From Candidatus Gemmiger stercoripullorum (lineage in GTDB: Bacteria > Bacillota > Clostridia > Oscillospirales > Ruminococcaceae): a stretch of 40,142 bases of DNA. Below, piece after piece: positions 4,383 through 16,340 of this stretch. The stretch covers positions 1 through 40,142 of the forward strand of contig DWXD01000013.1 of the NCBI GenBank assembly GCA_019119365.1, given 5' to 3'. The translations under genes and the position numbers were made by a program. The notes beneath the pieces are model-generated. The model was not told where the DNA came from. It made no database searches and worked only from the letters and a program-made list of their open reading frames with translations. Within the stretch, counting starts at the first letter, position 1; the number at the start of each line of letters is the position of its first letter.

Positions 4383-6350
4383 ATGGCATTTACCAAATGC
4401 TGGCTCGCCTACCCGGCCATCCCCGGTGCGGCCTGTGAAAAACTGACCGTCTGCGTCCCGGCGGGGGACGACCCCGTCCTGGCCAGCGCCCGGGCGGAGC
4501 TCGCCACCGGCTTCAAGGGTCTGTACGGCGCGGAGCTGGCCGACGCCCCCGGCCAGGCGGACGTCCGCCTGGAGATCGACCCGGCGCTTGACGCCGAAGG
4601 CTACCGCATCGCCGCGGGCGAAGGCCGCTGCAGCGTTGCGGGCGGCAGCGCCACCGGCGTGCTGTACGGCGTCTTTGCGCTGCTGCGCGCGCTGCAGATG
4701 AACGGCTGCGCCCTCAAGGACCTGACCCTGCGGCAGCAGGCGGCCCCGGCCAACGTTCATCGCATGCTCAACCACTGGGACAACATGGACGGCAGCATCG
4801 AGCGCGGCTACTCCGGCGATTCCTTCTTCTTCAAGGACGACGTCGTGCTGGTGGATGAGGACCGTCTCAACGCCTACGGCCGCATGCTGGCTTCGGTGGG
4901 CATCAACGGCATCGTCATCAACAACGTCAACGTCAAGCAGGCGGCCAGCTGGCTCATCACCGACCGCTACTTCGCCCCGCTGCGCCGCTATCAGGAGATC
5001 CTCGGCGCTTACGGCGTCAAGCTGTATCTGAGCATCAACTTCGCCGCGCCCATCGAGCTCGGCGGCATGGACACCTGCGACCCCTGCGACCCGGCTGTTG
5101 CCGCCTGGTGGAAGGAAAAGGCCGCCGATGTGTGGGCCAACCTGCCCGGTCTGGGCGGCTTCCTCGTCAAGGCCGACAGCGAAGGCCGCCCCGGCCCCTT
5201 CACCTACAACCGCACCCAGGCCGACGGCGCCAACATGCTGGCCGACGCCGTGGCGCCGTTCGGCGGCCACATCGTCTGGCGCTGCTTCGTCTACAACTGC
5301 CAGCAGGACTGGCGCGACACCAAGATCGACCGCGCCTGCGCGGGCTACAACGCCTTCATGCCGCTGGACGGCCAGTTCCGCGACAACGTCACGCTGCAGA
5401 TCAAGAACGGCCCCATGGACTTCCAGGTGCGCGAGCCGGTCTCGCCGCTGATCGGCGGGCTCAAGCACACCCACATCATGGTCGAATTCCAGATCGCGCA
5501 GGAATACACCGGCCAGCAGCGCCATGTCTGCTATCTGATGCCGTGGTTCCGTCAGGTGCTCGACTTTGACCTGCGCACCCGCCCGGACAACAGCACGGTC
5601 GCCGCGCTCATCCGCGGTGCGGGCAACGGCATGGCCGCCGTCACCAACACCGGCAACGACGAAAACTGGACCGGCCACGATCTGGCCGCCGCCAACCTCT
5701 ACGGCTTCGGCCGCCTGAGCTTTGACCCGACCATGAGCCCCGAGACCATCGCGGACGAATGGCTGCGCCAGACCTTCGGCCAGAACCCGCCGGTCGAAAA
5801 GACGCTGCACGAGATCCTCATGCAGTCCTGGCCCACCTACGAAAAATACAACGCGCCGCTGGGCGTGGGCTGGATGTGCAACCCCAACTATCACTACGGC
5901 CCGAACGTCGACGGCTACGAGTATGACCGCTGGGGCTGCTACCACCGCGCCTCCTTCGACGGCATCGGCATCGACCGCACCCCCACCGGCAGCGACTACT
6001 GCCACCAGTATGCGCCGGAGCTGGCCGAGATGTACGCCAATGTCGACACCTGCCCGGACGAATTGATCCTGTTCTTCCACCATCTGCCGTACAGCCATGT
6101 GCTCAAGAGCGGCAAGACCGTGCTGCAGCACATCTACGACACTCACTTTGAAGGCGCCGAGGACGCGGCCCGCTTCTATGACGAAGTCGTCGCCCTCAAG
6201 CCGTATCTCGACCCCGCGGTCTATGCCCGCCTGGAGGCGCGCTTTGCCCACCAGAAGGCCCATGCCTGCGAATGGCGCGATGTCATCAACACCTACTTCT
6301 ACCGCAAGACCGGCATCCCCGACGCGCATGGCCGCAAGATCTATCCGTAA
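4383..6350 (+). CDS. aguA: GH67 alpha-glucuronidase
   Basis: A 655-residue enzyme that removes (4-O-methyl)-glucuronic acid from the non-reducing-end xylose of xylo-oligosaccharides; this is the only well-known activity of GH67. The family landmark NHWDNMDGSIERGYSG is present near residue 130. Catalytic candidates are Glu267 (in VKADSEG), Asp346 (in KNGPMDFQ) and Glu374 (in AQEYTG); their spacings of 79 and 28 residues match those I recall for the characterised Geobacillus and Cellvibrio enzymes (E285/D364/E392 type). There is no signal peptide, so it should act in the cytoplasm on imported aldouronic acids. A textbook site, AAAGGAGGT, lies 7 bases before the ATG. It is the last gene of the GH2-NifS-GH67 group and is followed by a strong hairpin terminator. 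No aldouronate transporter is visible in the window; the shared ATPase MsmX at 34589 could energise one. Confidence 0.95.
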   Translation: MAFTKCWLAYPAIPGAACEKLTVCVPAGDDPVLASARAELATGFKGLYGAELADAPGQADVRLEIDPALDAEGYRIAAGEGRCSVAGGSATGVLYGVFALLRALQMNGCALKDLTLRQQAAPANVHRMLNHWDNMDGSIERGYSGDSFFFKDDVVLVDEDRLNAYGRMLASVGINGIVINNVNVKQAASWLITDRYFAPLRRYQEILGAYGVKLYLSINFAAPIELGGMDTCDPCDPAVAAWWKEKAADVWANLPGLGGFLVKADSEGRPGPFTYNRTQADGANMLADAVAPFGGHIVWRCFVYNCQQDWRDTKIDRACAGYNAFMPLDGQFRDNVTLQIKNGPMDFQVREPVSPLIGGLKHTHIMVEFQIAQEYTGQQRHVCYLMPWFRQVLDFDLRTRPDNSTVAALIRGAGNGMAAVTNTGNDENWTGHDLAAANLYGFGRLSFDPTMSPETIADEWLRQTFGQNPPVEKTLHEILMQSWPTYEKYNAPLGVGWMCNPNYHYGPNVDGYEYDRWGCYHRASFDGIGIDRTPTGSDYCHQYAPELAEMYANVDTCPDELILFFHHLPYSHVLKSGKTVLQHIYDTHFEGAEDAARFYDEVVALKPYLDPAVYARLEARFAHQKAHACEWRDVINTYFYRKTGIPDAHGRKIYP

Positions 6351-6485: not shown

Positions 6486-7355
6486 TTAAGAGAGGCTGCT
6501 GTTTGAGCCGAGCTTGCGGAACTCGCTGGGCGTACAGCCGATCTGCGATTTGAAGATCCGGTTGAATGTGGCCAGAGAGTTGAACCCCGACCGCATCGCC
6601 ACTTCGGTGATGGGCAGGGTGAAATCCACCAGCAGGTTCTTGGCGTACAGGATGCGCCGCTCCAGCAGAAAGTTGTGGCAGGTCGTGCCGGTCATCGTCT
6701 TGAACAGGCGGGCAAAGTGATATTTGCTGAACCCGGCTTCGTTGGCCAGCTCGTCCAGCGAAAGGTTCTCGGTGCAGTGCGATGTGATGTAGTTGCACAG
6801 CTCGGTGAACCGCTCCTGCTGCTCCTGCTGCTTGGGCGTGTTCAGCTCCTCGCCGTGGATCTGGCGCGTGTAATGCCGCCCGATCGTCGCAAAGTAATGC
6901 AGCATCATCGAGGCGATCTCGCAGTCGCGGTAGGTGTCCGCCCCGCCGTATTCCGCTTCCATGCGCGTCAACTGCGCAAACAGGCTGTCGGCCAGGTCGG
7001 GGTCGTCGGCCCGGCGGAACAGCTTGTACGGGTGCAGCGTGGAGAAAAACAGCGAAAGCTCCTGGAACTGTTCGTAAAAGGAGTTGCTGAAGTTCACAAT
7101 GTACCGCTCGCCGGAAGGCGGCGCCGTGATGCTGTGCAGCTCGCCGGAAGCGATGATCAGCACATCGTGCGGCAGCAGCGTCAGCGCCTGCCCGGCGATC
7201 GTCACCTGGTAGGTGTTCTCAATCGGGCAGATGATCTCCCCGGGCACATGCCAGTGCAGCGGGAAGTCCTCCGCTGTGTGGTTGTGGTACAGCCGCGTGG
7301 TGGACGAGACCTTGAAATCGACTGTCTCGGTCGTACCGTTGAGTTTTTCGATCAT
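6486..7355 (-). CDS. AraC-family transcriptional regulator with N-terminal cupin
   Basis: A 289-residue protein. The N-terminal 170 residues look like an AraC-type ligand-binding cupin (metal or sugar-facing histidines in HNHTAEDFPLHWH, then a LLPHDVLIIASGELHSI strand pair). The C-terminal ~100 residues hold the two helix-turn-helix motifs, including LSLDELANEAGFSKYHFARLFK and the closing PSEFRKLG signature. The frame stays open upstream to 7505, but that part lies inside the ROK gene; the ATG at 7355 is chosen because GGGAGGAA precedes it by about 7 bases. It is co-directional with and 46 bases downstream of the ROK gene, so they are probably one transcript. It faces the glycosidase group and most likely activates those genes in response to a xylan-derived sugar; the inducer is not shown by sequence. 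Confidence 0.9.
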   Translation of the reverse strand: MIEKLNGTTETVDFKVSSTTRLYHNHTAEDFPLHWHVPGEIICPIENTYQVTIAGQALTLLPHDVLIIASGELHSITAPPSGERYIVNFSNSFYEQFQELSLFFSTLHPYKLFRRADDPDLADSLFAQLTRMEAEYGGADTYRDCEIASMMLHYFATIGRHYTRQIHGEELNTPKQQEQQERFTELCNYITSHCTENLSLDELANEAGFSKYHFARLFKTMTGTTCHNFLLERRILYAKNLLVDFTLPITEVAMRSGFNSLATFNRIFKSQIGCTPSEFRKLGSNSSLS

Positions 7356-7401
7356 GGTTGTTTCCTCCCGGGAACATGGCGGGCGCGGCGCGCAGCCGGC
7401 C

Positions 7402-8535
7402 TCACAAAGCCTCGATGAACTGGTTGATGAAGTGCAGCGCCACCCCCAGCGGCACCGCGTGCTTGGGGTAGTGGCACAGCCGCACATAGTCGGCCGTCTC
7501 GGCAAAGGGGTCGCGCGCGGCGGTCAGCCGCCGCAGCTCGGGCAGGTAGGGCGGCAGATACTGCGCCAGATACCCGCCCAGCACGATGTTGCAGTCCAGC
7601 GCCATGCGGATCGAGACCAGCCCCACCGCCAGGTGGCGCAGATAGTCCGACCACAGCGTGCGGTAAGCAAGGTTGCCGGCTTCAAGCCCGGCAAAGAACT
7701 GCTCCACCGTGACGCCCAGATCGGTCGAAAGCCGGGCCGAGGAGCAGTACGCCTCCAGGCACCCGTGCTGGCCGCACTGGCAGGGCAGCCCGCCGGGCTG
7801 CACGCAGATGTGGCCGAACTCGCCGCTGCGCCCGTTGGCGCCGGTGTAGGGCACGCCGTCGATCAGCACGGCTCCGCCCACGCCGCCTTCCAGCGAAAGA
7901 TAGGCAATGCTGCCCTTCTCCTGCTGGGCGAACCACTCGGCGTAACCGCCGCTGGTGGCGTCGTTGCTCAAAAGGACAGGGCAGGGGATGGCGTCGGCCA
8001 GCGGCTGCAGGTCCGCATCGTGCAGGTGCAGCGTCGGCGATGTCAGCACCCGCGTGCGCTCGGCGTTCAGGATGGCGGGCAGCGCAATGCCGGCGCCCAG
8101 CAGCTTTTCGCGGTTGAGCCCAAAGTCGTGCATGAACTGCGCCAGCTCCTCCGCCAGCAGGCGGCCCAGCTCGGCCAGGCTGCCGGTGCGCGGGTGGGAG
8201 CATTTGCGGTAAGCGATCTCCTCCAGCCGCAAATTGGCGGCCAGGATGCGGAAATGTTCACCCGAGACCGAGACCCCCAGCGCAAAGCGGGCGTTTTCGG
8301 CCACCGACAGCTGCACGGCCCGCCGCCCGCCGGTCGACTCCCGCATGCCGTTGGTCTGCACAAGCTCGGCGCGCAGCAGTTCGGCCAGGTTCTGGTGCAC
8401 GGTCGGCGTGCTCAGGCCCAGGTCGTCGGCGATCTCCTGCTTGGAGCGCCCCTGCGGTGCGCTATACAGGTAGCGGTAGATCCGGTTGCGGGTCAGCCGC
8501 CGCCGCTCGGTCGCGGTCTGGTTCAGCTTCTCCAT
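7402..8535 (-). CDS. ROK-family transcriptional repressor (XylR/NagC type)
   Basis: A 377-residue ROK regulator: an N-terminal winged helix (RSKQEIADDLGLSTPTVHQNL, residues ~31-51) fused to a sugar-kinase-like ROK domain. The zinc-binding ROK signature is intact (GLPCQCGQHGCLEAY) with the upstream GEFGHI motif. Members of this family act mainly as repressors released by a sugar; XylR is the example that controls xylose genes. It is transcribed divergently from the xylulokinase gene with 227 bases between the two starts, the classical layout for a local repressor. A weak GTGAGG site precedes the ATG. Whether xylose, xylulose or another pentose is the inducer is not visible. Confidence 0.9.
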   Translation of the reverse strand: MEKLNQTATERRRLTRNRIYRYLYSAPQGRSKQEIADDLGLSTPTVHQNLAELLRAELVQTNGMRESTGGRRAVQLSVAENARFALGVSVSGEHFRILAANLRLEEIAYRKCSHPRTGSLAELGRLLAEELAQFMHDFGLNREKLLGAGIALPAILNAERTRVLTSPTLHLHDADLQPLADAIPCPVLLSNDATSGGYAEWFAQQEKGSIAYLSLEGGVGGAVLIDGVPYTGANGRSGEFGHICVQPGGLPCQCGQHGCLEAYCSSARLSTDLGVTVEQFFAGLEAGNLAYRTLWSDYLRHLAVGLVSIRMALDCNIVLGGYLAQYLPPYLPELRRLTAARDPFAETADYVRLCHYPKHAVPLGVALHFINQFIEAL

Positions 8536-8585
8536 ACAAACCTCACATAACTTAACAAAAGGGTTTCCGATGGGTAGATACTACT

Positions 8586-8614
8586 ATACTAGCCAACGGC
8601 GGAAAAAATGTCAA
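8586..8614 (-). promoter_or_regulatory. Sigma-A promoter for the ROK-AraC transcript
   Basis: On the minus strand, TTGACA (8614-8609), a 17-base spacer and TAGTAT (8591-8586) give a near-consensus promoter about 50 bases before the ROK start codon. Transcription should begin near 8580. Confidence 0.8.
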
Positions 8615-8678
8615 TGAAAGCGCGAAACCTTGGCGATTATTGCTGATAAACGCGAACTCTTTTTGTGCATTTCGGACA

Positions 8679-8707
8679 TTGACACCGTGCCCTGCAAACA
8701 GTATCAT
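8679..8707 (+). promoter_or_regulatory. Sigma-A promoter for the xylulokinase module
   Basis: TTGACA (8679-8684), a 17-base spacer and TATCAT (8702-8707). Expected start of transcription is about 8714, inside the inverted repeat described next, so occupancy of that repeat would block initiation. Confidence 0.85.
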
Positions 8708-8711
8708 ATAA

Positions 8712-8742
8712 AAAGAACTTACATAAATGTTCTTTACAAAAG
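8712..8742 (+). promoter_or_regulatory. Candidate repressor operator at the xylB start site
   Basis: AAAGAAC (8712-8718) and GTTCTTT (8729-8735) form a 7-bp inverted repeat with a 10-base centre, directly after the -10 box. It is followed by CTTTACAAAAG (8732-8742), which matches CTTAACAAAAG (8551-8561) in the ROK leader at 10 of 11 positions. Paired similar sites on both sides of the divergent region fit control by the ROK protein; this assignment is inference. Confidence 0.55.
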
Positions 8743-8762
8743 AACATGGAAAGGCGGTACAT

Positions 8763-10247
8763 ATGCTGTACATCGGCGTTGACCTTGGCACTTCGGCCTG
8801 CAAGTTTTTGCTGGTGGATGAAGAAGGCAAGGTTTGCAATCAAGTCACCCGGGAATACCCCCTGAGCATGCCGCATACCGGCTGGAGCGAGCAGAGCCCC
8901 GCCGGCTGGTGGAAGGCCTGCCTGGAAGGCATCCCCATGCTGCTCGAAGGCTTTGACCCCGCCCAGGTGCAGGGCATCGGCATCGGCGGCCAGATGCACG
9001 GCCTTGTGGCGCTGGACAGCGACGACAACGTCCTGCGCCCGGCCATCCTCTGGAACGACGGCCGCACGGCCAAGGAGACCGATTACCTCAACAACGAGAT
9101 CGGCCGCGCCACCCTGAGCCGCTGCACCGGCAACATCGCGTTCGCCGGCTTTACCGCCCCCAAGATCCTGTGGATGAAGGCCAACGAGCCCGAACTCTAT
9201 GCCCGCATCGCCAAGATCATGCTGCCCAAGGACTACCTGGTCTACTGCATGACCGGCGTGCATGCGACCGATTACTCCGACGCTTCCGGCATGCTGCTGC
9301 TCGATGTCGAGCACAAGTGCTGGAGCAAGGAAATGTGCGAGATCTGCGGCGTTCAGCCCGAATGGCTGGCCACGCTGTACGAAAGCTGGGAGCAGGTCGG
9401 CACCCTCAAGCCCGAAGTCGCCAAAGCGCTGGGCCTGTCCGAGAACGTCAAGGTCTGCGCGGGCGCGGGCGACAACGCCGCCGCGGCCGTGGGCACTGGC
9501 ACCGTCGGCGACGGCCGCTGCAACATCTCGCTCGGCACCTCCGGCACCATCTTCATCTCCAGCAAGAAGTTCGGTGTCGACGATACCAACGGCCTGCACG
9601 CGTTCGCCCATGCGGACGGCGGCTGGCACCTGATGGGCTGCATGCTGTCTGCCGCTTCCTGCAACAAGTGGTGGATGGACGACATCCTCAAAGTCACCGA
9701 CAAGGATTACCCGGCCGAGCAGGCCCCCATCACCAACGACCACCTGGGCCGCAACAAGGTCTTCTTCCTGCCCTATCTGATGGGCGAGCGCAGCCCCATC
9801 AACGACACCGACTCCCGCGGTACGCTGATCGGCCTGAGCATGGACACCACCCGCGCCGACATCACCCAGGCCGTCATGGAAGGCGTCTCCTTCGCCATCC
9901 GTGACTGCTATGAGGTCGCCCGCAGCCTGGGTGTCGAGATCCCGCGCTCCAACATCTGCGGCGGCGGCGCCAAGAGCCCGCTGTGGTGCAACATCATGGC
10001 GAACGTCCTCGGCATTCCGCTGGACATCCTCGTCACCGAGCAGGGCCCCGGCTACGGCGGCGCGCTGCTGGCCATGGTCTGCTGCGGCCGTTACGCCACC
10101 GTGCAGGAGGCGACCGACGCGCTCGTGCATGTGTCCCGCACCATCGAGCCCGACCCCGAACTGACCGCCCGCTATGAGGAGCGCTACCAGAAGTTCAAGC
10201 AGATCTATCCGACCTGCAAACCTCTTTTCAAAAAGCTCGCGGAATGA
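8763..10247 (+). CDS. xylB: Xylulokinase (FGGY family)
   Basis: A 494-residue carbohydrate kinase that phosphorylates D-xylulose to xylulose 5-phosphate with ATP. Landmarks are the N-terminal phosphate loop GVDLGTSACK (residues 5-14), the xylulokinase-typical GGQMHGLV (75-82), LWNDGRT (97-102) and the catalytic Asp237 in GAGDNAAAAVGTG, then the C-terminal FGGY-like GGGAKSPLWCNIMAN segment. The frame is open 12 codons further upstream, but those would start inside the operator; the ATG at 8763 has AAAGGCGG before it and gives the family's usual N-terminus. It heads a group with DUF4867 and the isomerase-fold protein. The GQMHG motif favours xylulose over ribulose or fuculose, but related kinases are promiscuous and the isomerase partner is unusual. 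Confidence 0.93.
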   Translation: MLYIGVDLGTSACKFLLVDEEGKVCNQVTREYPLSMPHTGWSEQSPAGWWKACLEGIPMLLEGFDPAQVQGIGIGGQMHGLVALDSDDNVLRPAILWNDGRTAKETDYLNNEIGRATLSRCTGNIAFAGFTAPKILWMKANEPELYARIAKIMLPKDYLVYCMTGVHATDYSDASGMLLLDVEHKCWSKEMCEICGVQPEWLATLYESWEQVGTLKPEVAKALGLSENVKVCAGAGDNAAAAVGTGTVGDGRCNISLGTSGTIFISSKKFGVDDTNGLHAFAHADGGWHLMGCMLSAASCNKWWMDDILKVTDKDYPAEQAPITNDHLGRNKVFFLPYLMGERSPINDTDSRGTLIGLSMDTTRADITQAVMEGVSFAIRDCYEVARSLGVEIPRSNICGGGAKSPLWCNIMANVLGIPLDILVTEQGPGYGGALLAMVCCGRYATVQEATDALVHVSRTIEPDPELTARYEERYQKFKQIYPTCKPLFKKLAE

Positions 10248-10277
10248 TATACTTGTTTTAAAAAGGGGGTTTTTCTC

Positions 10278-10919
10278 ATGAAGATCTATCCTGTCTCCGC
10301 GCCTGAGTTTGCGCCCTACGGCCGTGTGATCACCGGCTACGAGGCGGAATGCAAGGCCATCACCGCGGCGCTGGCCGCCCACACCCCGCTGCCCGAAGCC
10401 ACCGACTATGTGCCGGAGGAACCGGCCCTGCAGTCTCTGCCCGAGGCGAAGACCCTCGGCGTGGCGCTGTACGGCGGCATGCCGGTCCAGTTCGGCTGGT
10501 GCAACGGCCACAACACCAAGCTCAACTGCCTGGAGTATCACCGTGACAGCGAGTTCAACCTCGGCACCGAGGACTTCGTCCTGCTGCTTGCCCGCGAGGA
10601 CGACATTGTCGGCGGCAAGCTGGACACCGCCAAGGTCAAGGCGTTCCGCGTGCCCGCCGGGGTCCTGGTGGAAGTGTACGCCACCTCGCTGCACTACGCG
10701 CCCTGCCACACCGACCCCGCCAAGGGCTTCCGCGTGATGGTGGCGCTGCCGCAGGGCACCAACACCGCCAAGCCGGAGCTGCCGGTGCGCGGCGGCGACG
10801 ATGCCTGCCTGTGGGCCTGCAATAAATGGCTGCTGGCCCACCCCGAATCTGCCGAAGCCGGACAGGGCGCCGTGGTTGCTCTGACCGGAGTGAATACCGA
10901 CATCGCAAACGACCTGTAA
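10278..10919 (+). CDS. DUF4867 family protein, cupin-like
   Basis: A 213-residue protein that I place in DUF4867. Its start, FAPYGRVITGYE, resembles ureidoglycolate-lyase/KduI-like cupins. Possible metal ligands are His88 and Glu92 in EYHRDSEF, Glu98, and His139/His144 in LHYAPCH; this HxxxE...H spacing is cupin-like, but the ligand role is inference. No signal peptide or membrane span, so cytoplasmic. It starts 30 bases after xylB with a purine-rich site (AAAAAGGGGG) and ends 26 bases before the isomerase-fold gene, so the three are one operon. From its place, it could be a sugar mutarotase, an isomerase partner or a lyase for a sugar intermediate; no function is established to my knowledge. 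Confidence 0.8.
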   Translation: MKIYPVSAPEFAPYGRVITGYEAECKAITAALAAHTPLPEATDYVPEEPALQSLPEAKTLGVALYGGMPVQFGWCNGHNTKLNCLEYHRDSEFNLGTEDFVLLLAREDDIVGGKLDTAKVKAFRVPAGVLVEVYATSLHYAPCHTDPAKGFRVMVALPQGTNTAKPELPVRGGDDACLWACNKWLLAHPESAEAGQGAVVALTGVNTDIANDL

Positions 10920-10945
10920 ACAAAACACGAACGGAGGAATTTTCT

Positions 10946-12436
10946 ATGAAATCCACTAACATCCCCGAAGTCAAGCTGGGTCTCATCGCCGTCAGCCGCG
11001 ACTGCTTCCCCATTGAGCTGAGCCAGAAGCGCCGCGCCGCCGTGGCCGCCGCCTGCGCCGCCAAGGGCGTCGACATCTACGAGGCCAAGACCACCGTCGA
11101 AAACGAGAAGGACATGCTCGCCGCCGTCAAGGAAGTCACCGAAGCCGGCTGCAACGCCCTGACCGTCTTCCTCGGCAACTTCGGCCCTGAGACCCCCGAG
11201 ACCCTGATCGCCAAGTACTTTGACGGCCCCTGCATGTTCGTGGCGGCTGCCGAAGGCGACGGCGACCTGATCAACGGCCGCGGCGACGCGTACTGCGGTA
11301 TGCTGAACTGCTCCTACAACCTCGGCATGCGCCACCTCAACGGCTATATCCCCGAGTATCCGATCGGCACCGCCGAGGAACTGGCCGACAAGATGGCCGA
11401 GTTCGTCCCGATGGCCCGCGCGATCATCGGCGTCAAGAACCTGAAGATCATCACCTTCGGCCCCCGCCCGCAGGACTTCTTCGCCTGCAACGCCCCCATC
11501 ATGGGCCTGTACAAGCTCGGCGTCGAGGTCGAAGAGAACTCTGAGCTCGACCTGCTCGTCGCCTACAAAGAGCATGCCAACGACCCCCGCATCGACGATG
11601 TCTGCAAGGACATGGCCGCCGAGATGGGCGAAGGCAAGTACTATCCCGACCTGCTGGCCCGCATGGCGCAGTTTGAGCTGACCCTGCTCGACTGGGCCGA
11701 GGCCCACAAGGGCAGCCGTCAGTATGTCGCTTTTGCCGACAAGTGCTGGCCCGCCTTCCCGTCTCAGTTCGGCTTTGAGCCCTGCTACGTCAACTCCCGC
11801 CTGGCTTCCCGCGGCATCCCCGTCTCCTGCGAAGTCGATATCTACGGCGCTCTGTCCGAGTACATCGGCATGTGCATCTCCGGCGATACCGTCACGCTGC
11901 TCGACATCAACAATAGCGTGCCGCAGTACCTGTATGACGAGGACATCAAGGGCAAGTTCGACTACACCCTCACCGATACCTTCATGGGCTTCCACTGCGG
12001 CAACACGCCTTCCTGCAAGATGTGCGCCGACCGCGCGGTCAAGTACCAGCTGATCCAGCACCGCCTGCTCGAGCCCGCCGGCAGCGAGCCCGATTTCACC
12101 CGCGGCACGCTGGAAGGCGACATCGCCGCTTCCGACATCACCTTCTACCGCCTGCAGTGCGACAGCGAAGGCGTCCTGCGCAGCTACATCGCCGAGGGCG
12201 AAGTCCTGCCGGTCGCGACCCGCTCCTTCGGCGGTATCGGTGTGTTCGCCATCCACGACATGGGCCGCTTCTACCGCCATGTCCTGGTCCAGAAGCACTA
12301 TCCGCACCATGGCGCCGTGGCCTTCGGCCATTACGGCAAGCTGATGTTCGAGGTCTTCAAGTTCCTCGGCGTCGCCGACATCGCCTGGAACCAGCCCAAG
12401 AGCCTGCCCTACGCCACCGAAAATCCCTGGGCTTGA
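10946..12436 (+). CDS. L-fucose/L-arabinose isomerase-fold protein
   Basis: A 496-residue protein of the FucI/AraA superfamily, metal-dependent aldose-ketose isomerases. Candidate metal and catalytic residues are Glu296 (SCEVDIYG), Asp320 (LLDINNS) and a C-terminal His454/His455 (YPHHGA), with His350 in MGFHCGN nearby. The Glu-Asp spacing of 24 residues equals that of E. coli FucI (E337/D361, from memory). It is shorter than FucI (~590) and close in size to AraA (~500). The start at 10946 is set by ACGGAGGAA 7 bases ahead; the frame extends upstream into DUF4867 but without a site. A cysteine cluster (FHCGNTPSCKMC) is unusual and could bind metal. Lying beside xylulokinase, it may supply the ketopentose for that kinase; the substrate could be D-xylose, D-arabinose, L-fucose or another sugar. 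Confidence 0.82.
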   Translation: MKSTNIPEVKLGLIAVSRDCFPIELSQKRRAAVAAACAAKGVDIYEAKTTVENEKDMLAAVKEVTEAGCNALTVFLGNFGPETPETLIAKYFDGPCMFVAAAEGDGDLINGRGDAYCGMLNCSYNLGMRHLNGYIPEYPIGTAEELADKMAEFVPMARAIIGVKNLKIITFGPRPQDFFACNAPIMGLYKLGVEVEENSELDLLVAYKEHANDPRIDDVCKDMAAEMGEGKYYPDLLARMAQFELTLLDWAEAHKGSRQYVAFADKCWPAFPSQFGFEPCYVNSRLASRGIPVSCEVDIYGALSEYIGMCISGDTVTLLDINNSVPQYLYDEDIKGKFDYTLTDTFMGFHCGNTPSCKMCADRAVKYQLIQHRLLEPAGSEPDFTRGTLEGDIAASDITFYRLQCDSEGVLRSYIAEGEVLPVATRSFGGIGVFAIHDMGRFYRHVLVQKHYPHHGAVAFGHYGKLMFEVFKFLGVADIAWNQPKSLPYATENPWA

Positions 12437-12445
12437 CGCCTGAGC

Positions 12446-12490
12446 GGCTATGCCGCGAAATTGCGCGCAGCGCAATGCGTCAACGGGCGG
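12446..12490 (+). repeat. 45-bp direct repeat, copy 1
   Basis: This 45-base unit begins GGCTATGCCGCG and ends CAACGGGCGG, and is identical to the copy at 12567-12611. It contains the hairpin ATTGCGCGCAGCGCAAT (6-bp arms, 5-base loop). It starts 10 bases after the isomerase stop. Confidence 0.9.
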
Positions 12491-12506
12491 CAGCCCGTTC
12501 CACTGT

Positions 12507-12533
12507 CACCGGCCGCCGAACAGGCGGCCAGTG
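12507..12533 (+). repeat. Hairpin between the two 45-bp repeats
   Basis: CAC-C-GGCCGCC pairs with GGCGGCC-A-GTG around GAACA: ten pairs with one mismatch. It gives the gap a repeat-hairpin-repeat layout like a BIME element. Confidence 0.6.
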
Positions 12534-12566
12534 CCGGGGCGCGAGCCGTTCCCGCCGGGAGCGGTA

Positions 12567-12611
12567 GGCTATGCCGCGAAATTGCGCGCAGCGCAATGCG
12601 TCAACGGGCGG
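12567..12611 (+). repeat. 45-bp direct repeat, copy 2
   Basis: Perfect copy of 12446-12490, offset by 121 bases. No open frame with a ribosome binding site covers either copy, so they are read as intergenic repeats. Confidence 0.9.
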
Positions 12612-12680
12612 AGCAACAGGCTTTGCCCAATATCCAATATCATCGCCGTTATCCGTTTTGAAACCGTAGAATAGAATTCT

Positions 12681-12756
12681 GCAGGGGCGGCCGCATGCCA
12701 AGCGAGGACCCAATGGTCCGCCCGTGCGCATGCGGTGCGCCCCTGCGGTTTTCTGT
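12681..12756 (+). repeat. Large intergenic palindrome, possibly the terminator of the xylB module
   Basis: GCAGGGGC...CCGCATGC (12681-12698) pairs with GCATGCGG...GCCCCTGC (12728-12746), giving two 8-bp blocks around a 29-base loop, followed by GGTTTTCTGTT. It could terminate the xylB transcript or be a dispersed palindromic repeat. The whole gap 12437-12804 holds only these repeats and the ribosome binding site of the next gene. Confidence 0.55.
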
Positions 12757-12804
12757 TACATAGGCACGCAGTCAACCAGAAACGAAAGAAAGGATGCAAA
12801 GACC

Positions 12805-13464
12805 ATGAGATTCTTCATTGATACCGCCAATGTGGACGAGATCCGCAAAGCCAACGACATGGGCGTCATCGCCGGCGTTACCACCAACCCCAGCCTGATC
12901 GCCAAGGAAGGCCGCGACTATGCCGAGACCCTGGCCGAGATCGCCACCTTCGTGGACGGCCCCATCTCCGGCGAGGTCAAGGCCACCACCACCGACGCCG
13001 AGACCATGGTCAAGGAAGGCGAGGCCATCTACGCGCTCGATCCCAAGCACATGGTCGTCAAGATCCCCATGACCGGCGAAGGCCTCAAGGCCATCAAGGC
13101 GCTGTCCGCCAAGGGCATCCCCACCAACTGCACCCTGATCTTCACCGCCAACCAGGCCCTGCTGGCCGCCCGCGCCGGCGCGACCTACGTCAGCCCGTTC
13201 CTCGGCCGTCTGGACGATATCTCCCAGCCCGGCATCGAGCTGATCGAGTCCATCCGCGGCATCTTCTGCAACTATCCCGAGATCAAGACCCAGATCATCG
13301 CCGCCAGCGTGCGCAACCCGATCCATGTCACCGACTGCGCTCTTGCCGGCGCCGACATCGCCACCGTGCCCTACAAGGTCATCGAGCAGATGCTGCATCA
13401 CCCGCTGACCGACTCCGGCATCGAGAAGTTCAAGGCCGACTACTGCAAGGTGTTTGGTGAATAA
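12805..13464 (+). CDS. tal: Transaldolase / fructose-6-phosphate aldolase family protein
   Basis: A 219-residue short transaldolase (the TalC/MipB group), which moves a three-carbon dihydroxyacetone unit between sugar phosphates through a Schiff base. The probable Schiff-base lysine is K86 in [12 protein letters not shown]; the start [13 protein letters not shown] and the VTTNPSLI strand are typical. The frame is open upstream to 12724 but the ATG at 12805 is the family start and has AGAAAGGA ahead of it. It is the first gene of the pentose phosphate run, with one base between its stop and the transketolase ATG. Some proteins of this group act as fructose-6-phosphate aldolases; with transketolase next door, transaldolase is the better reading. 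Confidence 0.93.
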
Positions 13465-13465
13465 T

Positions 13466-14317
13466 ATGACGAACGAAGAACGTAAAGCGCTGCAGATCGC
13501 AGCCTGCAAAGTCCGCATGGGTGTGATCGAATCCACCCACGGGGCCAAGGCCGGCCACCCCGGCGGCAGCCTCTCGGCGGCCGAAATGTTCGCGTACCTT
13601 TATAACAAAGAGATGCGCATCGACCCCGCCGATCCCAAATGGGACGACCGCGACCGCTTCGTGCTCTCCAAGGGCCACACGGCCCCCGGCCTGTACAGCG
13701 CACTGGCCTACCGCGGCTTCTTCCCGGTCGCGGACCTGCCCACGCTGCGCCACATCGACAGCTACCTGCAGGGCCACCCCAACATGAACACGGTCCCCGG
13801 CGTCGATATGTCCACCGGCTCGCTCGGCCAGGGCGTTTCCTGCGCCGCGGGCATGGCCAAGGCCGCCAAGTACCTCAAGAAAGACAACGTCCGCGTCTAC
13901 ACGCTGCTGGGCGACGGCGAGATCGAGGAGGGCGAAGTCTGGGAGGCGTTCATGTTCGCCGCCAAGTATGCTCTCGATAACTTCTGCGTCATCATCGACC
14001 TCAACGGCCTGCAGATCGACGGCCCCACAAAGGACGTCATGAACACCGAACCGGTCGACGCCAAGATGCGCGACTTCGGCTTTGAGGTCGTCACGATCAA
14101 CGGCCACGATGTGGACGAGATCGAGAAGGCGTTCGACGTCTTCCACGCGACGTCCGGCAAGCCCACCGCCATCCTCATGCACACCACCAAGGGCAAGGGC
14201 GTCAGCTTTATGGAAAACCAGGTCGGCTGGCACGGCAAGGCCCCCAATGACGAAGAGTACAAGACCGCCATGGACGAACTCAACGCCCAGATGGCAGAAC
14301 TGGAGGCGCAAGCATGA
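13466..14317 (+). CDS. Transketolase, N-terminal subunit
   Basis: A 283-residue protein carrying the thiamine-diphosphate-binding half of transketolase. Seen are GAKAGHPGGSLSAAE (around residues 26-40), LSKGHTAPGLYSAL, and the diphosphate/Mg motif GDGEIEEGEVWEA running on to ALDN. With the next gene it makes a complete enzyme, a split form common in Firmicutes and archaea. TTG (13454) and GTG (13457) codons in frame are possible starts, but they lie in the end of tal; the ATG at 13466 is preferred, one base after the tal stop, with AAGGTG upstream. Its last 4 bases overlap the start of the C-terminal subunit (ATGA), keeping the two subunits in equal supply. Confidence 0.94.
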   Translation: MTNEERKALQIAACKVRMGVIESTHGAKAGHPGGSLSAAEMFAYLYNKEMRIDPADPKWDDRDRFVLSKGHTAPGLYSALAYRGFFPVADLPTLRHIDSYLQGHPNMNTVPGVDMSTGSLGQGVSCAAGMAKAAKYLKKDNVRVYTLLGDGEIEEGEVWEAFMFAAKYALDNFCVIIDLNGLQIDGPTKDVMNTEPVDAKMRDFGFEVVTINGHDVDEIEKAFDVFHATSGKPTAILMHTTKGKGVSFMENQVGWHGKAPNDEEYKTAMDELNAQMAELEAQA

Positions 14318-15252
14318 GTGATGTCAAGAAGATCGCCACCCGCGACAGCTACGGCAACGCGCTGGTAGAACTGGCGAAAGATCATCCCGATGTCGTCGTG
14401 CTGGACGCCGACCTGGCCGCCGCCACCAAGACCGGCGTGCTCAAAAAAGCCTACCCCGACCGCCACTTTGACTGCGGCATTGCCGAGAGCAACATGGTGG
14501 CCGTGGCCGCCGGCATGGCGGCGATGGGCCTTGTGCCGTTCGCTTCCAGCTTTGCGATGTTTGCGGCCGGCCGCGCGTTCGAGCAGGTCCGCAACTCCAT
14601 CGGCTACCCGCACCTCAACGTCAAGATCGGCGCCACCCACGGCGGCATCTCGGTCGGCGAGGATGGCGCTTCGCACCAGTGCTGCGAGGATTTCGCGCTC
14701 ATGCGCTCGATCCCCGGCATGACCGTGCTCTGCCCGTCTGACGACGTCGAAGCCCGCGCCGCCGTCAAGGCCGCCTACGAACACGAAGGGCCCGTCTACC
14801 TGCGCTTCGGCCGCCTGGCGCTGCCCGTGTTCCATGACGAAGCCAACTTCAAGTTCGAGATCGGCAAGGGCGAGCAGCTCACCGAGGGCAACGATGTGGC
14901 CATCCTCGCCACCGGCCTCGAAGTGGGCGAAGCGCTGACCGCGGCCGAAACCCTCAAAAACGAGGGCATCCACGCCCGCGTCATCAACCTCTGCACGATC
15001 AAGCCGCTCGACGAGGAGATCGTCGTCAAGGCGGCGCGCGAGTGCGGCGCCGTCGTCACCTGCGAAGAGCACAGCGTCTTCGGCGGCCTCGGCGAAGCCG
15101 TCGCCGGTGTTCTGGCCGAGCAGTGCCCGACCAAAATGCGCCGTGTCGGCGTCAAGGACGTGTTCGGCCACTCCGGCCCCGCGTGGGACCTGCTCGAGCA
15201 GTTCGGCCTGCGTGCGGACGCCATCATCGCCGCTGTAAAGGAGCTGATCTAA
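14314..15252 (+). CDS. Transketolase, C-terminal subunit
   Basis: A 312-residue protein with the pyrimidine-binding and C-terminal domains of transketolase. The catalytic glutamate lies in DCGIAESNMVAVAAGMA, the Pyr-domain motif follows in VPFASSFAMFAAGRAFEQVRNS (read in two parts), and the C-terminal domain carries the GGLGEAVAGVLAE loop. It overlaps the N-terminal subunit by 4 bases and is followed after one base by rpiB. A pyruvate dehydrogenase E1-beta or DXP synthase-like role is unlikely given the paired N-terminal half and the pentose phosphate context. Confidence 0.94.
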   Translation: MSDVKKIATRDSYGNALVELAKDHPDVVVLDADLAAATKTGVLKKAYPDRHFDCGIAESNMVAVAAGMAAMGLVPFASSFAMFAAGRAFEQVRNSIGYPHLNVKIGATHGGISVGEDGASHQCCEDFALMRSIPGMTVLCPSDDVEARAAVKAAYEHEGPVYLRFGRLALPVFHDEANFKFEIGKGEQLTEGNDVAILATGLEVGEALTAAETLKNEGIHARVINLCTIKPLDEEIVVKAARECGAVVTCEEHSVFGGLGEAVAGVLAEQCPTKMRRVGVKDVFGHSGPAWDLLEQFGLRADAIIAAVKELI

Positions 15253-15253
15253 G

Positions 15254-15691
15254 ATGATCGCCATTGGCTGTGACCACGGTGGCTACGAGCTCAAGCAGAA
15301 GATCCTGGCCCACCTGACCGAGCGCGGTCTCGAATACCAGGATTTCGGCTGCGACTCGACCGCTTCGGTCGATTACCCTGTCTACGGCAAGGCCGTGGCC
15401 CACGCGGTGGCCGAAGGCCGCTGCGACCGCGGCATCGTCATCTGCTCCACCGGCATCGGCATCTCGATCGCCGCCAACAAGGTGCCCGGCATCCGCTGCG
15501 CCTTGTGCGGGGACTGCTTCTCCGCCCGGGCCACGCGCCAGCACAACGACGCCAACGTCCTGGCGCTCGGCGCGCTTGTGACCGGCCCCGGCCTGGCGCT
15601 GCAGATCGTGGACATTTTCCTGGACACTCCGTTTTCCGGCGAAGAGCGGCACAGCCGCCGCATCAGTCAGTTGGAGGAGACCCATGCTTGA
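15254..15691 (+). CDS. rpiB: Ribose-5-phosphate isomerase B
   Basis: A 145-residue RpiB/LacAB-family isomerase that interconverts ribose 5-phosphate and ribulose 5-phosphate. Visible are CDHGGYELK (residues 6-14), the base-donating Cys64 in VICSTGIGISIAANK and the RATRQHNDANVLALG segment. Size is typical (~145-150). The stop overlaps the rpe start by 8 bases. The same fold serves as allose-6-phosphate or galactose-6-phosphate isomerase, but the single gene between transketolase and rpe makes the pentose role the natural one. Confidence 0.93.
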   Translation: MIAIGCDHGGYELKQKILAHLTERGLEYQDFGCDSTASVDYPVYGKAVAHAVAEGRCDRGIVICSTGIGISIAANKVPGIRCALCGDCFSARATRQHNDANVLALGALVTGPGLALQIVDIFLDTPFSGEERHSRRISQLEETHA

Positions 15692-16340
15692 ATTCTGCGC
15701 CTCGATCCTGGCGGCGGACTTTGCCCGCCTTGGTCAGGATGTCGGCGCGGCCGAGGCCGCGGGCGTCGATGTGTTCCACATCGACGTGATGGACGGGCAT
15801 TTTGTGCCCACCATCTCCTTTGGCCCGCTGGTGGCCCGCGCGCTGCGCGGGGTGACGGCCAAACCGCTGGACGTACACCTGATGGTGGAAGTCCCGCAGC
15901 AGTTTGTGCCGGAGCTGGCCGCCATCGGCGTCGACCGTATCTCGGTCCACCGGGAGGTGCCCGGCGGGCCGGACGCGGCGCTGGCGGCCATCCATGCGGC
16001 GGGGCTCAAGGCGGGCCTGGTGCTCAACCCCGAGACCCCGGTCGAGGCCGCCGAACCTTACCTGCCCCTGTGCGACCAGATCCTGTTGATGACGGTGCAC
16101 CCGGGCCGCGGCGGCCAGGCGTATCTGCCCGGCAGCAGCGAGAAGATCGCCGCCATGCGGGCGCTGCTGCAAAAGGCGGGTTCCCCGGCCATCATCCAGG
16201 TCGATGGAGGGCTCAACGCCAAAACGCTGCCCGAAGCCCGGGCCGCGGGCGCGGATTCCTTCATCATGGGCAGCGCCGTCTTTGGCGGCGATATCCGCCG
16301 GAACCTGCAGCAGCTGCGGCAGGCGGCGGGCATGCCCTGA
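15684..16340 (+). CDS. rpe: Ribulose-phosphate 3-epimerase
   Basis: A 218-residue TIM-barrel epimerase that interconverts ribulose 5-phosphate and xylulose 5-phosphate, the step joining RpiB to the xylulokinase product. Metal-binding residues are His32 and Asp34 in FHIDVMDGHFVP, His65 in VHLMVE and the later aspartate in IQVDGGL; the phosphate loop MTVHPGRGGQ is intact. The ATG at 15684 lies inside the last codons of rpiB with GGAGGAG ahead. It closes the operon and is followed by a long terminator. Confidence 0.95.
   Translation: MLEFCASILAADFARLGQDVGAAEAAGVDVFHIDVMDGHFVPTISFGPLVARALRGVTAKPLDVHLMVEVPQQFVPELAAIGVDRISVHREVPGGPDAALAAIHAAGLKAGLVLNPETPVEAAEPYLPLCDQILLMTVHPGRGGQAYLPGSSEKIAAMRALLQKAGSPAIIQVDGGLNAKTLPEARAAGADSFIMGSAVFGGDIRRNLQQLRQAAGMP

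Follow-up and report, generated by a model that had tools for sequence, protein, structure and literature searches.

Which sugar is handled by an operon that couples a xylulokinase gene to a gene for an isomerase of the FucI/AraA fold, and what does the DUF4867 protein encoded between them contribute? This question is raised by a contig of Candidatus Gemmiger stercoripullorum (GenBank assembly GCA_019119365.1, contig DWXD01000013.1), whose 40,142 nucleotides were analyzed as a whole and are called the window in the following; it is one entire contig of a genome of 2.2 Mb in 70 contigs that is 90% complete. A first reading made from the letters alone (the original prediction) had described three tightly spaced genes under one promoter and a ROK repressor. 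Coordinates and a promoter scan confirmed this arrangement, with gaps of 30 bases between xylB and the DUF4867 gene and of 26 bases between the latter and the isomerase gene (Table 1). We read the locus as a D-xylose operon of XylB and the isomerase XylA-II under ROK control, to which DUF4867 would add an accessory cupin acting at the ring step of the sugar; taken as a whole, we hold this statement to be evenly balanced between right and wrong.

Identity of the isomerase and the kinase

The assignment of the kinase as a xylulokinase was upheld, as it scores above the cut-off of the equivalog model TIGR01312 (Table 1), while it stayed below that of a second xylulokinase model, NF011601 (397.7 versus 912). 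Classical xylA had been reported missing from the window; a search with TIGR02630 yielded no match in the whole genome, window and isomerase included, and a control search matched in 6 of 14 genomes. The isomerase is the product of the only PF02952 gene that a profile search detected in the genome. Neither of the FucI models TIGR01089 and NF008220 matched it at an E-value of 0.001, the sulfoquinovose isomerase SftI model NF048012 gave 50.6 bits, far under its cut-off of 700, and no solved structure was matched by sequence.

Its AlphaFold (AF2) model (predicted local distance difference test score, pLDDT, 81.5) superimposed on AraA with a template modeling (TM) score of 0.76 and on FucI (1FUI) with 0.71, and the fold also resembles that of a D-arabinose isomerase. 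The FucI-type Glu-Asp spacing of 24, which the original prediction had pointed out, corresponds to E296 and D320; all 27 sequences aligned share it without exception, and it is the same as that of E337 and D361 in Escherichia coli FucI. H455 lines up with FucI H528 in an hhalign comparison against a single FucI that spans only 31 columns at low probability. E337, D361 and H528 are the residues that we take to be the metal ligands of the E. coli enzyme. The orthologue group of the isomerase is sharply bounded, with matches either at or above 56% identity or at or below 44%, the lower set reaching about 30% at most where the matches are long.

A D-xylose isomerase of the FucI family has been described in Clostridium acetobutylicum, where CAC2610 (XylA-II) was identified by knock-out, complementation and enzyme assay (Gu et al. 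2010, PMC2873477) and showed an activity of 1.90 µmol per mg per min (PMC2873477). According to data quoted as unpublished, xylB, CAC2611 and xylA form one operon in this organism (PMC3507653). A chromid carries the genes for XylA-II and XylB in C. butyricum, and two strains that lost the chromid reportedly cannot grow on D-xylose, as stated for a study cited there (PMC12342839). Given its family, the order of the operon and the annotation in print, the window isomerase looks like an orthologue of CAC2610. The proposal that the FucI-like protein is an aldopentose isomerase of a non-canonical kind is very probably right, although such an isomerase, XylA-II, was already known. In all likelihood it is a XylA-II that acts on D-xylose, judging by its characterized relatives. 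In the open-access literature, no paper was found that joins fucose isomerase, xylose, Faecalibacterium and xylulokinase.

Gene company and phenotypes pointing to D-xylose

In C. saccharobutylicum, genes for XylB, a ROK protein, FSA, transketolase, DUF4867 and a fucose-isomerase-like protein share one operon, and a ΔxylB mutant did not grow on D-xylose while growth on L-arabinose was kept (PMC6158908). An uncultured Gemmiger (locus L070) carries xylB, the DUF4867 gene, xylA-II, the FSA gene, a split transketolase and rpe in the order of the window. In a distant family group (f60, f90), 6 loci were read, from 6 of the 8 linked genomes besides that of the window, and xylA-II is divergent to xylB and the DUF4867 gene in all six (L265-L270). 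Where genes around these loci were scanned, a PF00083 sugar symporter was present in 4 of 4 (L266, L267, L268, L270), and both of the others (L265, L269) have a gene for a GH43 beta-xylosidase. Elsewhere, a GH3 gene lies ahead of xylB and the DUF4867 gene (G151) and a GH39 gene downstream of the latter (G163). The operons of the relatives, the ΔxylB phenotype, the symporter, GH43, GH3 and GH39 neighbors and the GH67 gene upstream in the window together indicate D-xylose as the likely substrate.

Cupin fold and predicted metal site of DUF4867

The DUF4867 protein, encoded by a single gene in the genome, covers positions 1-200 of the 201 of the PF16161 profile (gathering score 28.7), and PF16161 was the only Pfam family matched at an E-value of 0.001, with no match to the families of GalM, FucU or RhaM. 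Sequence comparison detects just two solved relatives, 9GYY and 9GYZ (E 9e-35), and its AF2 model (pLDDT 94) superimposes on them with TM scores of 0.92 and 0.90, respectively. Outside its own family, the closest fold is 2BDR, an AllA-like putative ureidoglycolate hydrolase (Foldseek E 4.8e-6). Behind it and close together follow AllA (7.2e-5), the L-ribose isomerase 3WW1 (8.6e-5) and kanamycin B dioxygenase, with the phosphoglucose isomerase 1J3P at 1.2e-4. Comparison with a library of viral structures returned generic cupin and oxygenase folds.

In the solved relative, the metal is held by E97, H99, E103 and H150 (PMC11968277). These residues of 9GYY correspond to E86, H88, E92 and H139 of the window protein, which are invariant in 23 of 23 aligned DUF4867 sequences and form a motif E-x-H-xxx-E. 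Three of the ligands originally listed, H88, E92 and H139, are therefore retained; the fourth, H144, is not conserved and is a Lys in 9GYY, and E86 had been missed. DUF4867 is accordingly described as a cupin with a 2Glu-2His site like that of 9GYY, for which metal binding is predicted. Short and weak PF16161 matches were also seen in frames of about 163-182 amino acids in six further genomes, which perhaps represent a distant AllA/DUF4867-like subfamily.

DUF4867 is associated with XylA-II

The survey of DUF4867 loci comprised 80 named loci, the best 80 of 592 confirmed ones. XylA-II and XylB both lay within 2.5 kb of DUF4867 on the same strand in 39 of the 80, XylA-II alone in 6 and neither in 35; among the 59 loci whose flanks measure 2 kb or more on each side, XylA-II stood beside DUF4867 in 33. 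The original prediction would have been undermined by a canonical xylA elsewhere in the genome together with a lack of conserved neighborhood. No classical xylA was found in the genome, and the conservation is strong yet far from universal.

Co-occurrence was analyzed in 197 genomes of the order, comprising 27 with a full or near-full DUF4867, 59 with XylA-II and 37 with classical XylA. XylA-II was found in 23/27 genomes with DUF4867 versus 36/170 without (Fisher 1.7e-10), and the association persisted where DUF4867 was unlinked to XylA-II (14/18 versus 36/170; 2.5e-6). True FucI showed no association (8/27 with versus 56/170 without DUF4867; p 0.83). In a sample of 398 genomes of the phylum, XylA-II was present in 12 of 13 genomes with DUF4867 versus 18 of 385 without, and the starts of the two genes lay at most 9 kb apart in 9 of the 13. 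An apparent exclusion between DUF4867 and classical XylA (1/27 versus 36/170 genomes, p 0.03) vanished at the level of genera with XylA-II (p 1.0) and was rejected, as was an exclusion between XylA-I and XylA-II, since 13 genomes carry both (p 0.43).

In a tree of 65 DUF4867 rows, the window protein belongs to a supported group of 31 rows from xylose operons or lone genes, and the rows linked to SftI or to FucI lie outside this group. In locus L051, DUF4867 adjoins an SftI-like isomerase. Directly after a true L-fucose isomerase gene (TIGR01089 972.6 bits, cut-off 850), a DUF4867 gene was seen in L055 (3219-5789), the sole such case among the loci read. Lone copies, with neither XylB nor XylA-II adjoining, occur in eight loci of Butyrivibrio and Pseudobutyrivibrio, and those of them that the tree includes group near the copies of the xylose operons.

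What is new here is the specific link between DUF4867 and XylA-II, which persists when the genes are unlinked, the company of D-xylose genes, and one row of xylB, xylA-II and galM (G071).

A possible role in ring opening or anomer exchange

That DUF4867 has no recognized function, as the original prediction had put it, is correct, and the activity tests found in the open-access literature were negative (PMC11968277). Its suggestion that DUF4867 is tied to the isomerase, possibly as a mutarotase, fits a metal cupin linked to XylA-II, but the idea had already been published in 2022 and 2025 (PMC9594981, PMC11968277). The earlier of these papers proposed that the family opens the ring of sulfoquinovose (SQ) for the FucI-like SqvD, described FucI as acting on the open-chain sugar and listed sulfoglycolysis clusters with YihR, a relative of GalM, in place of SqvB (PMC9594981). 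In the later one, a role as mutarotase or ring isomerase was proposed, and of the largest DUF4867 cluster, which has 557 members, 434 were placed in aldose/ketose neighborhoods, including those with fucose-isomerase and FGGY kinase genes; ligand density was seen at the metal of an SqvB crystal soaked with sulfofructose (SF), where SF and HEPES were indistinguishable (PMC11968277). Its main text contains neither the word 'xylose' nor the word 'acetobutylicum'.

Under the mechanism that we consider, D-xylose would be converted to D-xylulose by XylA-II and the D-xylulose phosphorylated by XylB, so that xylulose 5-phosphate would be passed to the pentose phosphate enzymes encoded downstream, with the ROK protein repressing the operon at a palindrome until a xylose-type inducer relieves repression. 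With its FucI-like fold, XylA-II would need the open chain or a given anomer of D-xylose, and xylosidases and transporters would deliver the pyranose. DUF4867 may speed up the opening of the pyranose or the interconversion of its anomers ahead of the isomerase, its metal holding the hemiacetal oxygens and helping to expel the ring oxygen, much as AllA expels urea. Such a mere rate helper would explain why DUF4867 is frequently absent. A precedent for the need of a xylose mutarotase is XylM, which in Geobacillus stearothermophilus forms part of the XylR regulon (PMC12285236). Gene tables of E. coli show isomerase, kinase and mutarotase together in the rows fucI-fucK-fucU and rhaB-rhaA-rhaD-rhaM, and in G071, a genome with no DUF4867 match, galM directly follows xylB and xylA-II. 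Ring opening or anomerization as the reaction of DUF4867 is suggested by this context with a confidence that falls somewhat short of even. More tentative still is the broader proposal that DUF4867 is a metal-dependent ring-opener or anomerase on a cupin fold like that of ureidoglycolate lyase, a type of mutarotase unrelated to GalM, FucU and RhaM, which would serve FucI-fold isomerases generally and would here act on D-xylose.

Several observations weigh against this role. The published assays were negative: SftX did not accelerate the mutarotation of SQ or SF, in nuclear magnetic resonance measurements restricted to non-paramagnetic metals, and had no kinase activity, and the Bacillus megaterium protein showed no thermal shift with SQ or SF (PMC11968277). 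Neither partner was found in 26 of the 59 loci with sufficient flanks, and XylA-II occurs without DUF4867 in 36 of 59 genomes of the order sample and 18 of 30 of the phylum sample, which makes DUF4867 an accessory. The statistics of co-occurrence ignore relatedness among genomes, and the xylose-operon label is scattered over the DUF4867 tree, where well-supported branches require it to change at least 7 times. A GalM gene next to XylA-II was seen in just 1 of 68 loci (G071), viewed up to about 6 kb to each side with some clipped by contig ends. Moreover, a GalM-family gene adjoins DUF4867 in five loci, divergently in four of one family (L038, L039, L042, L044) and on the same strand in L052, so that GalM and DUF4867 are not simple substitutes. 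In G132, finally, DUF4867 lies beside fucI while an RbsD/FucU-family gene is present elsewhere in the genome; such a gene occurs in 15 of 36 chosen genomes, G132 included.

The single E. coli GalM query used at first had missed the GalM-family gene of L052, and a profile search repeated over the loci gave the same 1/68. Replacement of DUF4867 by GalM, FucU or RhaM was rejected, with G071 as the one case among the 68 XylA-II loci. Among the genomes of the order sample in which xylB adjoins xylA-II without DUF4867 (G071, G194, G013, G145), galM is found only in G071. In L052 (7943-9519), the DUF4867 gene and the GalM-family gene lie a few bases apart, beside a weaker xylulokinase-like kinase.

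Alternative explanations

Two alternatives concern the sugar. A D-arabinose, L-fucose or L-arabinose isomerase would agree with a fold common to AraA, FucI and a D-arabinose isomerase, but the partner is a xylulokinase by a curated model, relatives adjoin a sugar symporter or GH43, XylA-II of C. acetobutylicum acts on D-xylose and the ΔxylB phenotype of a similar operon is specific for xylose, which renders this very unlikely. The combination of DUF4867 and PF02502 with a PF02952 isomerase and a split transketolase comes close to the published neighborhood of the sulfo-transketolase pathway for sulfoquinovose (PMC11968277). However, XylB, RpiB (TIGR01120) and Rpe (TIGR01163) exceed their cut-offs, no PF00465 match was obtained among the 30 window proteins scanned, and the SftI model score and the fact that the sole PF02952 gene detected in the genome encodes the window isomerase led us to reject this pathway as extremely improbable.

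Two others accept the D-xylose operon and assign a different task to DUF4867. As a cupin aldose isomerase or epimerase it could channel a further sugar such as D-lyxose into D-xylulose; XylB would take D-xylulose derived from D-lyxose, and the Foldseek matches to 3WW1 and 1J3P are hardly weaker than that to AllA. The top match outside the family is nevertheless the AllA-like 2BDR, the motif is E-x-H-xxx-E instead of the H-x-H of typical isomerase cupins, and DUF4867 is also found in sulfosugar loci and once beside fucI, where no such sugar is expected, and we therefore regard this role as unlikely. Alternatively, a maintenance protein could remove damaged sugar or an epimer that lies off the pathway, or supply or protect the metal of the FucI-fold isomerase. 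The absence of DUF4867 from the majority of XylA-II genomes, the negative mutarotase tests of SftX and partners spanning three branches of the isomerase fold are in line with this, while the fully conserved metal-site residues and the density at the metal of the SF-soaked SqvB crystal, be it SF or HEPES, suggest a catalyst; such a function seems doubtful, if less far-fetched than a cupin isomerase. The reading preferred here remains that of a D-xylose operon with DUF4867 at the ring step.

Layout and regulatory sites of the locus

Table 1. Features of the locus with their positions in the window.
Feature	Position	Strand	Evidence
xylB, xylulokinase	8763..10247	+	TIGR01312 559.3 bits, cut-off 380.25; closest solved structure 2ITM, a xylulose kinase
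DUF4867 cupin metalloprotein (SqvB/SftX family), predicted metal site E86, H88, E92, H139	10278..10919	+	PF16161 255.1 bits
XylA-II-type aldose isomerase, FucI/AraA fold, probable D-xylose isomerase; FucI-like metal site E296, D320, H455	10946..12436	+	PF02952 85.4 bits
ROK-family repressor, divergent; putatively XylR-like	7402..8535	-	PF00480 117.6 bits and winged-helix matches
Promoter-like site before xylB, TTGACA-17-TATCAT	8679..8707	+	consensus scan, 11/12
Perfect palindrome, putative ROK operator, directly downstream of promoter	8727..8747	n/a	9-base arms, 3-base loop; ROK binding presumed
FSA/transaldolase, split transketolase, rpiB, rpe (non-oxidative pentose phosphate steps)	12805..16340	+	Pfam and NCBIfam matches
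GH67 alpha-glucuronidase (xylan side-chain removal), upstream context	4383..6350	+	PF07488 466 bits, PF07477 306 bits

The consensus scan yielded 3 promoter-like sites in 8300-13000, compared to a mean of 1.0 (sd 1.0) in shuffled sequence; one of them, at 8614-8586, is divergent and is the promoter-like site of the ROK gene. The ROK protein would bind at the palindrome, which has a single exact copy in the whole genome; with up to 3 mismatches, 8 matches were found versus 6 for a control, which is near background. A common operator of related operons was considered, but the palindromes found before them differ from one another. Right behind the ROK gene and on its strand lies a frame for an AraC-type regulator (6486-7505), possibly a second sugar regulator; its long start overlaps the end of the ROK gene, and a later start would avoid the overlap.

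The pentose phosphate genes that the original prediction had placed next to the module are present, but they begin about 368 bases past the isomerase gene (the FSA start at 12805 is probable) and may form a separate transcription unit. The gap holds two identical 45-base copies (12446-12490 and 12567-12611), 121 bases apart, which may belong to a repeat element separating the two units.

Comparison with known systems

CAC2611 of C. acetobutylicum presumably encodes a DUF4867 member. The operon in which it lies resembles that of the window in that its genes for a xylulokinase and a FucI-family xylose isomerase flank a small gene and follow the order seen here (PMC2873477, PMC3507653). It differs in that the locus number of XylR (CAC3673) places this gene away from the operon, whereas the ROK gene of the window is adjacent and divergent, in that CAC2611-xylA-II has an upstream region of its own bound by XylR (PMC2873477), and in that pentose phosphate genes follow in the window. 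The C. saccharobutylicum operon (CLSA_RS15825-15800) shares the genes for XylB, ROK, FSA, transketolase, DUF4867 and the fucose-isomerase-like protein, but in another order, and the six genes listed for it include neither rpiB nor rpe (PMC6158908). The pairs SqvB/SftX and SqvD/SftI of sulfoglycolysis likewise join a DUF4867 cupin with the same metal-ligand residues (9GYY, 9GYZ) to a FucI-family isomerase (PMC9594981, PMC11968277); their substrate is a sulfosugar, whereas the window isomerase scores far below the SftI cut-off and the third partner is a xylulokinase. As in the fuc and rha rows of E. coli, an isomerase and an FGGY kinase stand in one row with a further protein, there a mutarotase, but DUF4867 lies outside the FucU and RhaM families and the sugars are others.

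Taken together, the locus is a largely documented kind of xylose operon, and its open part is the DUF4867 helper. The family is common in gut clostridia and the structure of a relative is solved. The published trials that were found used sulfosugars, and the genomic evidence points to cheap D-xylose as the better substrate. With XylA-II, a proven isomerase type is available as coupling partner, and the question of DUF4867 function can be tested directly in tractable clostridia. If DUF4867 is indeed a general ring-opener or anomerase, the xylose branch would be the place to catch an activity that the tests with sulfosugars have missed.

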